From Melampsora larici-populina 98AG31 (Eukaryota; Basidiomycota; Pucciniomycetes; Pucciniales; Melampsoraceae): a stretch of 64,000 nucleotides of DNA. The position numbers and the translations under genes are program-made. The notes below the pieces were generated by a model, which saw only the letters and a list, made by a program, of their open reading frames with translations, ran no database searches and had not been told where the DNA came from. The stretch is from assembly GCF_000204055.1 (NCBI RefSeq), contig NW_006768774.1, positions 1,379,819 to 1,443,818 on the forward strand, given 5' to 3'. Of this stretch, positions 46,925 through 63,254 are shown piece by piece (the stretch's first letter is position 1; each line of letters starts with the position of its first letter).

Positions 46925-48479
46925 ATGCTAATCAATTCAACTTCAACTCATCAATCTTCTACTAAAAGAAGATTATCGAATTTATTAAATCAAACAACTC
47001 GTAAACTATCGGATCTATCGACTTCTCTTATCAATCGTCAAGATCGTTTCACAAACTCAAACAACTCAAAACATTTTATCATCTCAGATTTATCATCATC
47101 TTCATCTTCTTCAAATACAATCAGTCCATTAAACGAATTATCATCACATCGTCGTAAGATCTTAGGATCAGTACCAGATCGATGGCCCATGTATAGTAAT
47201 CAGATGAGTGATTATGAAATCCTAGAACCTATTGGATTTGGTGCTTCATCAATCGTTAGACTATCAAGATTCAAACCAATTCAAAATGAACTTTGTGCAA
47301 TCAAGATTATAGATTTAGATAGATTAACACAAAAAGATGTAGAATCTTTGAGACGTGAAACTCAATTAATGTCATTAGCTAAACATCCTAACATACTTAG
47401 AGTTAGAGGTGAATGGATCAATGGTAGTCAACTTTATATTACCACTAGATTGATGAAAGCAGGTTCTTTATCTGATATTATTTCATATAGATTTCAAGAT
47501 GGATTACAAGAATCGATCATTGCTACAGTTTTGATTCAAGCTTTGAGTGGATTACATTATCTTCATTCTAATGGTTGGATTCATCGGGATATCAAAGCGG
47601 CTAATTTGTTGATTGATGATGATGGAACGGTCTTGTTGGCTGATTTTGGTGTTAGTGTCGATCCTGGTGTGATTGATCAAGTGGTTTCGAGTACTCCTCC
47701 TAAAATCGGTTCTTCACCTCGATTCATCCCTGAACCTTTCATCACACCTGCTAATTATGGTTTCGTAGGTTCGGTTCCATTCATGGCACCTGAACTTATT
47801 CAAGGTTCAGATTATAACGATAGAGCCGATATCGTAAGTCTTCATCTTTCATTTGATCAACTTCTTCATACAGTGTTTTTTCTAATGAACTTTTCTTTCT
47901 TTGATGGGTTAGTGGTCATTTGGAATCACAGCACTAGAACTAGCCAATGGAAAAGCACCTCACTCACTCTTTCCTCCTTCAGATGTATTATTAAAAACAG
48001 TAGAAGATCCATCTCCAACCTTAAACCGAAAGCCAATTGGAATGGATTACAAATATTCGAAAACTTTTGCAAGTTTTATCGATAGATGTTTACAAAAATC
48101 ACCTAATCTTAGACCATCTTCTTTAGAATTACTTTTGTATGAAAAGTTTTTTAATAAGGCTAAACGTAAACAAATCGTCATTAAGGAAATCTTGTTGGGT
48201 TTACCTCCATTGGAATCTAGACAGGAAAGAAGATGTGGTACGGGTTCGGGTTGTAAGAGATTGAACCCTACGATTGGTTGGGATTTTTCGACGACTGATT
48301 CGGATCTTGAACTGGATTCTACTTCTACTTCTCATGAAACTAAACCGATTGAAATCATTAATGAAAAAGAATTGATCACTTCTTCTAAATCTAATGAAGA
48401 AGTTCAAACCCATTCTATTTTAGATGAGAGTTTCTTTAATCAAGTAGTGCTTAGTCCTACTGAAATGATAAAACCTTGA
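46925..48479 (+). CDS. STE20-family Ser/Thr protein kinase (2 exons)
   Basis: Exons 46925-47833 and 47913-48479 give 491 residues. The first 95 residues are Ser/Thr/Asn-rich. The kinase domain shows the P-loop IGFGASSIVR (near 105), the lysine in CAIKII (near 126), HRDIKAANLL (near 220), DFGVS (near 240), GSVPFMAPE (near 283) and, across the intron, DRADI-WSFGITALELANGKAP. The APE and WSFGI motifs and HRDIKAAN place it in the STE20/GCK group, closest by motif to the SPAK/OSR1/Fray branch. Between DFGVS and the APE motif is an unusually long activation segment of about 38 residues rich in Ser/Pro. The C-terminal 150 residues are unique and Ser/Glu-rich. Such kinases relay stress, polarity or ion-balance signals. 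The substrate cannot be told. Confidence 0.9.
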
Positions 48480-50054: not shown

Positions 50055-50804
50055 TGTCAGCCCTGAGCCCTGTGTACAGGACCATGGACTAACAAACACA
50101 CATGTAAACACATTTAATACATATGTAAATAATATGTAAATATATGAAACTTGTTTAAAACCATAAGAATTACAACTCATGGCTCAGTTTCAAGAGTCAC
50201 TTAAGTAACAAGACTTTTAACCTCATAGTAAAACCTAACCCAAACCTAACTCAAAAGAAAAGCAAACCTAAGTGCCAACCACAAGTTGACGCCTAGGTCT
50301 GGAATATATAAACCCCTCTTCTTCCCACTCTGGAAGAAGAAGAACTTCATATCATTACACAACTCATCATCACAACTTACTTGATTCTTCACCAAGAATA
50401 TTGAGTACAGTGATATTGTTGTACTTTGATTGTCATAGTTCTTTTCTGTCTTTGTTCAGGTCATTGTAAAACCTCAAGTAGTGTTCTGAGCTTGTGGGAC
50501 CAATAGCTAACAGAACAAGCTTGGAATTTACAAAGGGCACCTCATTAGAGAGTCTAAAGTACCCAGCGGCACCTCTGATTCTTCAGAGTCTAAAGTACTG
50601 CAGGCTTGGTAGTTGTAAGATCAACCCAAGCTCAGAGTAGGATCCTTAGAAGGACTACTTAGCCATCCCACTGGCCACAAATCCTCTCATTAGAGGTCAA
50701 CTAACTGTAGTCTTCGCTTGGGTGTAACAAGTGAAGGCTTCATCGTTGACTACTCTTTACTTTTCTTAGTGAAGAGTTAGCCCAACAGTTGCTGACTCCT
50801 CACA
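50055..50804 (+). repeat. 5' LTR
   Basis: Starts TGTCAGCCCTGAGCC, ends GACTCCTCACA. A TATA-like ATATATAAACCCC at about 50308 probably sets the transcription start. From that point to the end of the LTR no ATG occurs. Confidence 0.95.
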
Positions 50805-50825
50805 ATTTGGGGGCCTCATCCGGTT
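50805..50825 (+). other. Primer-binding site candidate
   Basis: Right after the LTR comes ATTTGGGGGCCTCATCCGG. The TGGGGGC...TCCGG word resembles the complement of the 3' end of a proline tRNA, with one extra base and a mismatch. tRNA assignment is tentative. Confidence 0.5.
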
Positions 50826-52635
50826 TTTGTTCCTACAGACCTTTTTCTGTCCAGTTCTCATTTTTCTTTAATTTTTTACTTTACTTCAATTTTATATAAC
50901 AAAATCAAGAAATATAAAAAAATCTATTTCATTTCATTTCTTTTTCATTTTACAATTTTCTCTTTTTCTAATTTTTGAGATCACATTTGATTGAGATCAC
51001 AAGTATTGACCAGCTTTTATTTCAAATTGTAATTGAAGTCATCAAAATTCTTCTTTAGAAGACACTACTCAATTACCATCAAAGACACCCCATTTTTTGA
51101 TTCAATTGAGATCAATCAGTGGGATACTTATTTACACACTGAGAAAAGAAAATCAACAAGCCATTACATACATATATAGCATCTTTTATACTACTTTGTC
51201 TTTTAGTAATTGTGCTACATATATATTACAGTCTGTGTGCAGTAGTAATTCCCCATTTTGTTGAATTACTTGTCCAATATAGTAGACAGAGCACGTGTGT
51301 GGTTTATTACACAGTGTGTGAAGGAAGTGTAGTGTAATTTACATACACCTTGGAATTCCATTCTCAGACAATTCAGAAGTCGGGATAGCAACTTACATAA
51401 GCATATTAGCTTTATAACAGTGTCAAGTGTCAACAATTGACAGCTTTGAGTCAATTGTCACAAACTTGTGTCTTAGGGTGGGAGGGTAATCTTCACTAGC
51501 CCACTAAATCAACAAACCATAGTGGCAATCATCAAAACCACAACGTCAACCTCCCTTACGCAACATTGACCATCATTATTGGACATTTGAAGTCTACAAT
51601 TATCGGACAAACACAATCAACAACAAACCATATCAAGTTGAGATAGAGAAAACTACAAACGGAACAAGCTCATCTTCATTTCACATTATTCAAACATTTT
51701 CAACCAGAGAAGATTATTGAGGCAACTCTCTGTTGGTTTACTCATTTCATTTTTTTTCTTCTCTCATTATCGAAGAAGAAGTTGACATCAAAATTTTCTT
51801 TCTCCATTAGGGACCTTTCCTTGTTCTGGAAGTTTCCGGACGAAAGCACCCTAAAACCACGATCAGAAGCTATAAAAGCATTAGACTGTCTCCTTCAAAC
51901 AATCTTTCCCTCAACGATTTCAGCTCTTTAATCGTATCAAGACTATCAAACTTTTTCGTTCGTATTTCTCTACTCGACCTAATTATCATTTACTCATTTA
52001 CTCATTTTATCATTTTTTTTGTTTTTGATCATTTAATTCCTTTAGACTGCAATCAAAACCAGGCCTACAAGCCATCAAAGAGTACTTACAACAGTCAGTA
52101 GTTGTCTGATTGATTCTACTTTGTGACTATCTGACTCAAGTTGTGATTTGTTTTTCTGATTTTTTTTTGAATTCCATTCTTCATATTTTTTTTGTTTTCA
52201 TACTCCTAAGTGGGTCCTTTAGAATCAAACGAAAGATCTTTGTTTCAAGACCTCACTAATCGCATTCACGACGTAGCCAGCGAAGTTGGGACCTACTCTC
52301 CCTGTAGTACTCCAGCCATTAACGGGACCATCGCCTCAATCGACGGACAGTCCGTTATTTCCGAAACAACACCATTACCACCTCGATTCCAACCGGAAGC
52401 GACTGAAACCCCAACACCATTGGGTAATATACTTGATTACATACAAGACCCAGGTTAGTCATATTGATTTAAAAAGTTATAAATACTATTGTTAACATAA
52501 TTTTTTCTTTATTTAAAAGACCAGATCGAAGCAGTCAACCATTTAGAAAACCAAAGTGAGCATTGGTTTCTTTTTAAATCTACCATATCCAACTTGTTAT
52601 TTTTGATTTATCTTGATTAAAATCATTCTTCTACC
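50826..52635 (+). promoter_or_regulatory. Long ATG-free 5' leader of the retrotransposon
   Basis: Scanning the plus strand from before the TATA box (about 50180) to 52635 I find no ATG triplet, although the DNA is A/T-rich. The first ATG is the polyprotein start at 52636. The part from about 51490 onward is richer in CpG than the first half, has a second TATA-like motif (GCTATAAAAGC, about 51868) and GT/AG-bounded segments, as if derived from another gene. The leader overlaps the candidate spliced exons 52211-52453 and 52520-52555. Confidence 0.75.
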
Positions 52636-53389
52636 ATGTCCGATCGCCCTCGAACTCGCAGTGAATCGCGAAAACGAGCAAGCGGCCCAAATGCAGGTAC
52701 CGAGCGCCCCAGCGATCCCACCAGAGCGAGTGAACCAATCGGTCGAAGTTCAACCGATGGCGGTAGAACCAGCGAGCGCGGCAGGTCAACGACCCGAGGT
52801 AAGAGGAGAGGTCCTTTTACCTCAACCCCATTACGTGCAGGTGCTGATTATCCTGCTATAGGGAGTACCAATCGAGCCAGTGCCCCAACCCCAAGCACCA
52901 GTGCGATTGGATCCAGAGGTCACGTACCTCTGGAATTCCCTGCACGCTCAGTATCTGAGGTGGGAGGGAGCGAAGGCAATGGATCGAACCCTTCCAGACA
53001 CGAAACGCATCTGGAAGGAGTCGGTTTTCGAGGCTCGCCGAGCTTGGCGAAAGCTAGTGTTCAACCACAGCTACTCGGACGAGGGCATAGCCATGGAGGT
53101 GAGCAAATGGCTACGCCCTGGTACCCAACGATGGCGCCCGATTTGGATCAACCCCTTCGAATTCAGGGAGTTGACGGACGAGGAGATTCAAAAACTCCAA
53201 CCTCATCAAAAAAATCCGACTCACCTCAACAAGAAGAGACGATCCGACAATCGATCCAATCATTGGGAAAACGATCGCAAGAAGCAATCGTCAGTCTCGA
53301 ACTCCGAAGCTGTGATGAAGGCTCAAGCAGCTATGGGTCACTACCTGATCAGGCAAGAAACCCGCGGCCGCTTCAACCACGGCAATTAA
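52211..53389 (+). CDS. Candidate overlapping spliced ORF in the retrotransposon
   Basis: Segments 52211-52453, 52520-52555, 52662-52798 and 52862-53389 join in one open frame through GT-AG introns and end in TAA at 53387-53389. Read together they give a protein-like sequence: NHLENQMNREN across one junction, then VTYLWNSLHAQYLRWEGAKA, RRAWRKLVFNHSYSDEGIA and WRPIWINPFEFRELTDEEI, with many Trp and Tyr. The coding frame differs from that of the polyprotein, which is also open over 52636-53389. No ATG precedes the first segments. The first one is created by splicing: A at 52555 joined to TG at 52662. Initiation there would give about 221 residues. I do not recognise the product; it may be a captured host gene or an accessory protein of this retrotransposon lineage. 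Introns are inferred only. Confidence 0.5.
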
Positions 53390-59071: not shown

Positions 59072-59821
59072 TGTCAGCCCTGAGCCCTGTGTACAGGACC
59101 ACGGACTAACAAACACACATGTAAACACATTTAATACATATGTAAATAATATGTAAATATATGAAACTTGTTTAAAACCATAAGAATTACAACTCATGGC
59201 TCAGTTTCAAGAGTCACTTAAGTAACAAGACTTTTAACCTCATAGTAAAACCTAACCCAAACCTAACTCAAAAGAAAAGCAAACCTAAGTGCCAACCACA
59301 AGTTGACGCCTAGGTCTGGAATATATAAACCCCTCTTCTTCCCACTCTGGAAGAAGAAGAACTTCATATCATTACACAACTCATCATCACAACTTACTTG
59401 ATTCTTCACCAAGAATATTGAGTACAGTGATATTGTTGTACTTTGATTGTCATAGTTCTTTTCTGTCTTTGTTCAGGTCATTGTAAAACCTCAAGTAGTG
59501 TTCTGAGCTTGTGGGACCAATAGCTAACAGAACAAGCTTGGAATTTACAAAGGGCACCTCATTAGAGAGTCTAAAGTACCCAGCGGCACCTCTGATTCTT
59601 CAGAGTCTAAAGTACTGCAGGCTTGGTAGTTGTAAGATCAACCCAAGCTCAGAGTAGGATCCTTAGAAGGACTACTTAGCCATCCCACTGGCCACAAATC
59701 CTCTCATTAGAGGTCAACTAACTGTAGTCTTCGCTTGGGTGTAACAAGTGAAGGCTTCATCGTTGACTACTCTTTACTTTTCTTAGTGAAGAGTTAGCCC
59801 AACAGTTGCTGACTCCTCACA
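59072..59821 (+). repeat. 3' LTR
   Basis: 750 bp, identical to the 5' LTR as far as I can compare by eye except C at 59102 versus T at 50085 (CCACGG versus CCATGG). Confidence 0.95.
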
Positions 59822-62496: not shown

Positions 62497-63254
62497 TTAT
62501 GCTCCAACCATCTTACTTCCGACCTAATTAAATAAAATCGAATGATGAAAATCAAGTCAATGACGATGATCATAGCCAGGCGAGAAGAGTGATTTCAAAG
62601 GGAGATTAACTAACCGTTCTTTCGCTTTCTAGTTTAGCTTTATTCTTCGCAAAAGCTGCCTCACGGCAAGAAGTCATGTTGAGACTGTTGAATGATAGAA
62701 ATCAAAAGTTAGCCAAAGGCATTTAACTAAAAAAGGATGAATGAGGTCAGAGGTCAAGAGAGAGGCTTACCAAGCATGATCTTCTGGAAGTCGATGACGA
62801 GCACAGAATTGAAAAGTACAATGTGGACAATCACCAACCAAACCTGTATGAAGACAATTAAAATCCAAAAAACACCACCAAGTCCAGCACTCAGGCCTAA
62901 ACTCGAATCCAAGAGAAAACAGTTAAAACACAAAGACTTACGTAATGCAGGTTGAGAACACTGAGATTCATTGACACTATTCTTGGCATGTTGACATCGT
63001 TTCTTGGGAGCACCGCCTCTGAGTCGCATAGCCACCTCAGCCGTGATGAAATCGACTTGATGGTTTTCGATTTGACCATCCCAAGGTTTACCGGACCTTG
63101 AAAGACGAAGTGAAGAAACAAATGAGTTGGGTAGATTGGCATATTCACAAACGGCTTGTAAGATTTCATTTGGATTTCTATAGTTTGATGAGTTTTGTAA
63201 AATCATAGTTGCTGAACCTGGGAATGGTAAACTGAGTAAGATTTGAGGAGCCAT
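62497..63254 (-). CDS. Ubiquitin-like / AN1 zinc-finger protein (4 exons)
   Basis: Minus-strand exons 63254-62942, 62843-62771, 62684-62615 and 62523-62497 give 160 residues. The first 80 residues look like a divergent ubiquitin-like domain ending MRLRGG (residues about 76-81), the processing signature of ubiquitin precursors. Directly after it, APKKRC begins an AN1-type zinc finger: RCQHAKNSVNESQC, then VGDCPHCTFQFCARHRLPEDHAC, matching the Cys/His spacing CxxC...CxxxxHxxxxxHxC. The tail CREAAFAKNKAKLESERT-VGSKM matches fungal AN1 proteins that I recall (TMC1-like). AN1 proteins bind ubiquitin or proteasome factors and respond to stress. Splice junctions restore ALR-LVGDC and HAC-LNM in frame. 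Whether the ubiquitin-like part is cleaved after GG is open. Confidence 0.88.

Follow-up and report, generated by a model that had tools for sequence, protein, structure and literature searches.

Accessory genes expressed from spliced RNA are already known in long terminal repeat (LTR) elements. In the complex retroviruses, which use Rev or Rex, unspliced RNA encodes Gag-Pol and multiply spliced RNA encodes a small basic protein. The spliced product of errantiviruses is Env, which lies after pol, and in some insect errantiviruses env starts near the splice joint. For errantiviruses such as Springer, a Ty3/Gypsy element of Drosophila, the available part of the published account describes Gag and Pol as made from unspliced RNA and an extra protein as made from spliced RNA, with a donor that sits right after the 5′ LTR (PMC13097621). 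The available part of a second source reports that partial splicing of the RNA of BARE1, a Ty1/Copia element of barley, creates a stop right after Gag and Gag alone is made, and that the plant Ty3/Gypsy elements Ogre, CRR and Bagy2 have spliced RNAs, the splicing lying between open reading frames (ORFs), removing the reverse transcriptase (RT) or giving env (PMC3735527). Here we describe an LTR retrotransposon copy, W, in a stretch of 64,000 nucleotides (the window) from the poplar leaf rust fungus Melampsora larici-populina 98AG31 (contig NW_006768774.1, positions 1,379,819 to 1,443,818), which is predicted to carry an accessory gene whose start codon is made by splicing.

The rust element resembles the errantiviruses, as far as the available part of their description goes, in that unspliced RNA would give Gag/Pol and spliced RNA a further protein. 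It differs from them in that the accessory gene is placed ahead of gag and overlaps it, is interrupted by four introns if one that we call intron B is counted, and has a predicted splice-made start. A spliced ORF 3′ of pol, the errantivirus-type layout, was not found, the accessory exons lying at 52211-53389. BARE1 shares with the rust element a translation that is altered by splicing, but gains no new protein in the account available; Ogre, CRR and Bagy2 share spliced LTR-retrotransposon RNA, and the available part of the source mentions no splice-made start for them. The RNA logic of the complex retroviruses is similar; no sequence relation to them was found, and none was sought. In the open literature examined, part of it available only incompletely, we found no description of a splice-made retrotransposon start codon or of this rust family.

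Our data point to a predicted scheme with two RNAs, to which we assign a probability of about 0.82. Translation of unspliced RNA would begin at the first ATG, at 52636, and yield Gag-Pol, and spliced RNA would encode a 314-residue accessory protein. Removal of intron B would join A52093 to TG52211 and thereby create the accessory start, an ATG that the DNA itself lacks, and removal of a later intron, D, would take away the Gag start. Since removal of D would destroy a start and removal of B would create one, splicing would act as a switch. The scheme supposes that intron B is actually removed in cells, that in each RNA scanning takes the ribosomes to the first ATG, and that one protein results per RNA. 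The purge of leader ATGs would follow simply from this model, since ribosomes would reach any ATG in the leader of roughly 2.3 kb ahead of both starts. Coordinates follow the numbering of the window and refer to the plus strand unless stated. The parts of W are as follows; P0001 is a protein-database relative described below, and dN/dS is the ratio of nonsynonymous to synonymous substitution rates.

50055..50804, plus strand: 5′ LTR (TGTCAG...CTCACA), a repeat of 59072-59821 with a single difference at 50085
50180..52635, plus strand: stretch free of ATG by count, made up of the leader and two accessory-protein exons
50305..50311, plus strand: TATA-like box TATATAA, presumed to lie near a putative transcription start
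52046..52093, plus strand: predicted non-coding mini-exon with a conserved donor end, whose last A would be the first base of the start codon
52094..52210, plus strand: intron B (GTCAGT...CTCCTAAG), whose predicted removal joins A52093 and TG52211 as ATG
52211..52453, plus strand: accessory exon 1, in which third-position changes predominate; dN/dS was measured together with exon 2
52454..52519, plus strand: intron C (GTTAGT..AAG), absent in P0001
52520..52555, plus strand: accessory exon 2, in frame with the other accessory exons
52556..52661, plus strand: intron D (GTGAGC..CAG), which holds the Gag ATG and is absent in P0001
52636..59043, plus strand: Gag-Pol ORF of 2135 codons with RT, RNase H and integrase, and a weak C-terminal chromodomain match
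52662..52798, plus strand: accessory exon 3, overlapping Gag in a different frame
52799..52861, plus strand: intron E (GTAAGA..TAG), 63 nt, absent in P0001; its retention leads to a stop in the accessory frame
52862..53389, plus strand: accessory exon 4, with a conserved Trp-containing helical domain and a basic tail; stop TAA at 53387-53389
59072..59821, plus strand: 3′ LTR, 750 nt, the pair of the 5′ LTR

An earlier reading of this DNA, the original prediction, had noted that no plus-strand ATG occurs from about 50180 up to the one at 52636 that opens a polyprotein of 2135 codons. Both points were confirmed. Successive ATGs lie at 50179 and 52636, 2457 bases apart with none between, while the second-longest ATG gap in the window is 634 bases and consists largely of the corresponding part of the 3′ LTR. 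Between 50183 and 52635, 26 ATGs would be expected from a first-order Markov model, or 37 from base composition. The reverse word CAT was not depleted over the W leader (68 observed against 55 expected).

The same count was made in eight close copies, all of clade I, which are W and the loci L021-L027. Counting in the leaders began 30 bases past the TATA word, or in L022 at the start of the alignment, and ended at the Gag ATG; the word GGAATATATAAAC at the TATA box is present in 7/8 of the copies, L022 being without it and not aligning at its 5′ end. The W leader had 0 ATG against 25.9 expected, and the eight leaders pooled had 10 against 210.7, with 423 CAT against 430.9. The original prediction had proposed leader counts in family members, and the depletion held in the pooled figure, although a few ATGs are present in sister copies: seven of the 10 lie in L021, L023, L024 and L025, whose accessory frames are broken, and none in W or L022. 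Inside the ORF, ATG counts over the initial 2400 bases are 42 in W, 36 in L022 and 28 in L026, against 50.3, 41.8 and 37.3 expected.

Distant loci were assigned to clades II (L047, L049), III (L056, L063, L064) and IV (L059, L061). We found 2 leader ATGs against about 102 expected in six distant loci pooled (L049, L056, L057, L059, L061, L062), a figure biased to low counts by L059, L061 and L062, where counting began right after an upstream ATG. The ATG-free run before Gag is 2575 bases in L063, counted past an ATG at base 47, and 2623 bases in L064, counted from the first base of the stretch read, with about 26 ATGs expected in each. These counts indicate that the lack of leader ATGs is genuine and maintained by selection.

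The accessory frame was found to run upstream of the start proposed earlier through two more exons, giving 314 residues in W. Parts of exon 1 and exon 4 were found by tblastn in 8/8 close copies, and a motif search found all four exons in each. In silico splicing gave an intact protein of 311-314 residues in four of the eight (W, L022, L026, L027); among four distant loci spliced in the same way, L049 (clade II) gave 303 residues and L056 (clade III) 312. Between clades the accessory protein is 24-39% identical. In exons 1-2, W and L026 differ at 5, 7 and 44 sites in codon positions 1, 2 and 3, and dN/dS was 0.03-0.06 in the five comparisons between divergent intact copies; it was 0.31 between L026 and L027, which are nearly identical and offer very few changes to count. 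These two exons lie entirely 5′ of the first ATG in the DNA and have no start codon as DNA, yet they are under protein-type selection. Judged by this pattern of change, the second frame is a conserved protein under strong selection at the protein level.

We found an AG/TG acceptor (the slash marks the joint) ahead of exon 1 in 20/20 insertions read, 11 from clade I, three from II, four from III and two from IV. Each insertion has one donor-like GT 87-140 nt 5′ of this acceptor, and the base preceding the GT is A in all 20. The donor words of intron B are GTCAGT, GTCGGT, GTCAGC, GTAAGT, GTAAGC, GTGAGT and GTACGT; the words vary and the preceding A does not, which suggests that this base is retained as its surroundings change. 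At the other introns of the close copies the base before the donor GT is G in 8/8 (intron C), G in 7/8 (intron E) and A in 8/8 (intron D). Outside this start-joint count are L046 and L050, where exon 1 lies kilobases from exon 4, L051, L058 and L060, where exon 1 was not found in the stretch read, and further genome sites. Downstream of the exon-1 acceptor, no ATG precedes that of Gag in 18/20; L021 and L027 have an earlier one. The Gag ATG lies within intron D, 26 bases before its end in W and likewise within it in the clade II-IV loci read. Thus an RNA without B and D would hold the accessory start only, and an RNA keeping both would hold the reverse. The likely accessory initiator is the predicted splice-made A52093/TG52211, and this prediction of the start joint is exact to one base.

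The original prediction had instead placed the initiator at the joint of intron D. Much of that proposal stands: the intron 52556-52661 (GTGAGC...CGCAG) does contain the Gag ATG, A52555 and TG52662 do form an ATG, and once 52799-52861 is also removed the frame from this joint runs 221 codons to the TAA at 53387-53389. Joint D is not the first ATG of the predicted spliced RNA, since the frame continues through the two upstream exons, and the protein has 314 residues rather than about 221. We consider it improbable that A52555/TG52662 starts a 221-residue protein behind an untranslated leader formed by exons 1-2. Joint D is A/TG in 8/8 clade I close copies and in L049 (clade II), and in an RNA that had lost intron D and kept intron B no ATG would precede it. 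However, the joint is C/CC in L056 (clade III) and A/CC in L063 and L064 (III) and in L059 and L061 (IV), which makes it unlikely as the initiator, whereas joint B gives ATG in 20/20; the low dN/dS of exons 1-2, which are in frame with the remainder, also argues against an untranslated leader. Joint D would then encode an internal Met; at the most it could also start a shorter protein from RNA that retains intron B.

Very little weight falls on an accessory start at a GTG spanning the acceptor (52209-52211 region in W) of an RNA that retains intron B. Non-ATG starts are known in other systems, and an in-frame GTG crosses the acceptor in W, L022, L026 and L027, but such a start would leave the A before the donor without a reason for its conservation in 20/20, and introns C-E would need splicing regardless. 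It is likewise very improbable that the leader was purged of ATGs only for the scanning of a long leader towards Gag-Pol while the second frame, a decaying captured gene, is uninvolved. The end of the depletion at the Gag start, with 8-10 ATGs in accessory exons 3-4 of four copies, would fit that explanation; the strong selection on the second frame does not, nor does the conservation of splice sites and of the splice-made ATG across clades whose proteins have diverged so far.

When the spliced protein was searched against 5.8 billion proteins, one match was found at an expectation value (E) of 0.001, P0001 (305 residues, 72% identity, source code lgn, longest contig 1444). P0001 is unbroken across joints C, D and E, which suggests that such RNA gets spliced. 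A kinase from the same source, P0004, reads without interruption where the gene in this genome is split into two exons, so the source of P0001 contains spliced sequences. P0001 was not found in this genome, where the longest match is 75% identical and fragmented. Two more proteins came from a profile search: P0002 (M. larici-populina 98AG31), residues 29-202 of which are encoded at 98% by contig C204 of this assembly, and P0003 (M. americana, E 0.005). In these, translation of clade III exon 1 appears to run through an unspliced acceptor, giving K-V.

The region 52662-53389 is read in two frames. Here dN/dS was 0.13-0.22 for the accessory frame, across the same five comparisons of divergent copies. 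W, L022 and L026 have an open Gag frame in this region, L027 does not, and synonymous shuffles of the accessory codons left the Gag frame open in 0/2000 trials in each of four copies.

Several observations weigh against the two-RNA scheme. The Gag frame over the overlap has dN/dS of 0.78-1.17; taken with the accessory ratio and the shuffles, this suggests that the Gag N-terminus is kept open and is free in sequence, the accessory protein being the constrained partner. Measuring the two frames separately had been proposed in the original prediction. The accessory protein stops early in L021, L024 and L025 and has a frame shift in L023, and the accessory frames of L059 and L061 (clade IV) contain stops. 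The original prediction had taken stops in sister copies as a sign against a second gene; such stops are present in these copies, but the frame is intact in W, L022, L026, L027, L049 and L056. Two copies with intact accessory frames, L026 and L027, hold 1 and 2 leader ATGs, and the upstream stretch of L047 holds 17 against 22.8 expected. A shuffle test of ATG absence in exons 1-2 is weak alone, zero being reached in 92-152 of 2000 shuffles, and L027 has one ATG there. The copies in one genome are related, and the 20/20 represent fewer than 20 independent events; moreover, the patterns were drawn from sequences already read, with AG/TG mandatory and the donor pattern widened after GTCAGT and GTACGT. 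P0001 begins within exon 1, with joint B outside its span, and its tail (residues 259-304, the last 46) matches a different repeat of this genome (C103, C7), so that P0001 joins accessory exons to another element and may be chimeric or a processed copy. Either origin would presuppose a spliced RNA, as would P0001 being itself an RNA sequence. The proposal that full-length RNA gives Gag-Pol and spliced RNA an accessory protein remains the best reading of the sequence and of the spliced relative P0001, and the original prediction had misplaced its start codon.

The donors of intron B in clades I-II (GTCAGT, GTCAGC, GTCGGT) match GTRAGT poorly, and a share of the RNA may remain unspliced in these clades as a result. 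The Pfam search of exons 1 and 4 gave zero families above cut-off, and a PDB sequence search with exon 4 found no relative (best E 0.19). An AlphaFold2 model of exon 4 is helical, with a mean predicted local distance difference test score (pLDDT) of 72.3, a predicted template modelling score (pTM) of 0.53 and a confident core at about exon residues 21-100; a PDB fold search with this model gave 0 matches at E ≤0.001. By these searches exon 4 is an orphan domain. Its conserved parts are a Trp and Arg/Lys-rich stretches, and its tail is basic. From this tail and the place of the protein on spliced RNA, our guess is a regulator, nuclear or RNA-binding, that acts on the RNA of the element itself. 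A further idea, tentative and rather doubtful, is that this lineage evolved the logic of the complex retroviruses independently: only fully spliced RNA would start a small basic regulator, which would favour unspliced RNA that keeps the Gag-Pol start, with ATGs purged over >2 kb so that splicing alone picks the protein.

A conserved gene with a predicted splicing-only start, a 2-kb ATG purge and an overprint of Gag would provide a natural test of ribosome scanning and of a splicing switch. The lack of an ATG in the DNA suggests that such proteins would escape gene finders and transposon annotation.

The mini-exon and a further leader intron ahead of it look conserved (in clade I GTATTT..TTTAG, about 51960-52045 in W), and the 5′ boundary that this intron would give the mini-exon is more weakly indicated than the donor end. 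In L063 and L064 (clade III) a further candidate intron upstream of donor B reads A/GTRAGT..CTAG. A hairpin masking the B donor was considered and rejected; it was striking by eye in L064, L049 and L024, but over 17 loci the fold did not in general outperform shuffles or the same leader, and the RNA fold of 52030-52260 gave a z of 0.24. L047 (C94, clade II) has ordinary splice sites and an ATG-rich upstream part that aligns poorly with its relatives; we take it to be a recombinant or an old copy. The impression from tblastn that it is an intron-less copy was dropped, since the sequence itself has ordinary introns.

W is an LTR retrotransposon with the Ty3/Gypsy (Metaviridae) gene order of RT, RNase H and then integrase. 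Pfam matches in Gag-Pol are RVT_1 at residues 1207-1363, RNase H at 1427-1558, H2C2 at 1682-1740 and rve at 1758-1856, the last scoring below its cut-off. The chromodomain match at the Gag-Pol end is also below cut-off (Pfam Chromo E 0.011, 16 bits against 25.1), and a comparison with chromodomain chains gave a weak match, with a best E of only 0.016. Copies of the target-site duplicate GAATC flank the element on both sides, and the single difference between the LTRs suggests a recent insertion.

About 1.6 kb upstream of the element lies a FRAY/OSR1-type protein kinase gene of at least two exons (about 46934-48464, plus strand), whose best named match, among the matches listed, is from M. americana at 72%. 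None of the 120 listed carries the name M. larici-populina, for which a missing gene model is the one explanation we can offer. On the minus strand, the ORF 62754-63254 includes a segment that ends in LRLRGG, with a basic segment after it, and appears similar to a ubiquitin-type fusion.
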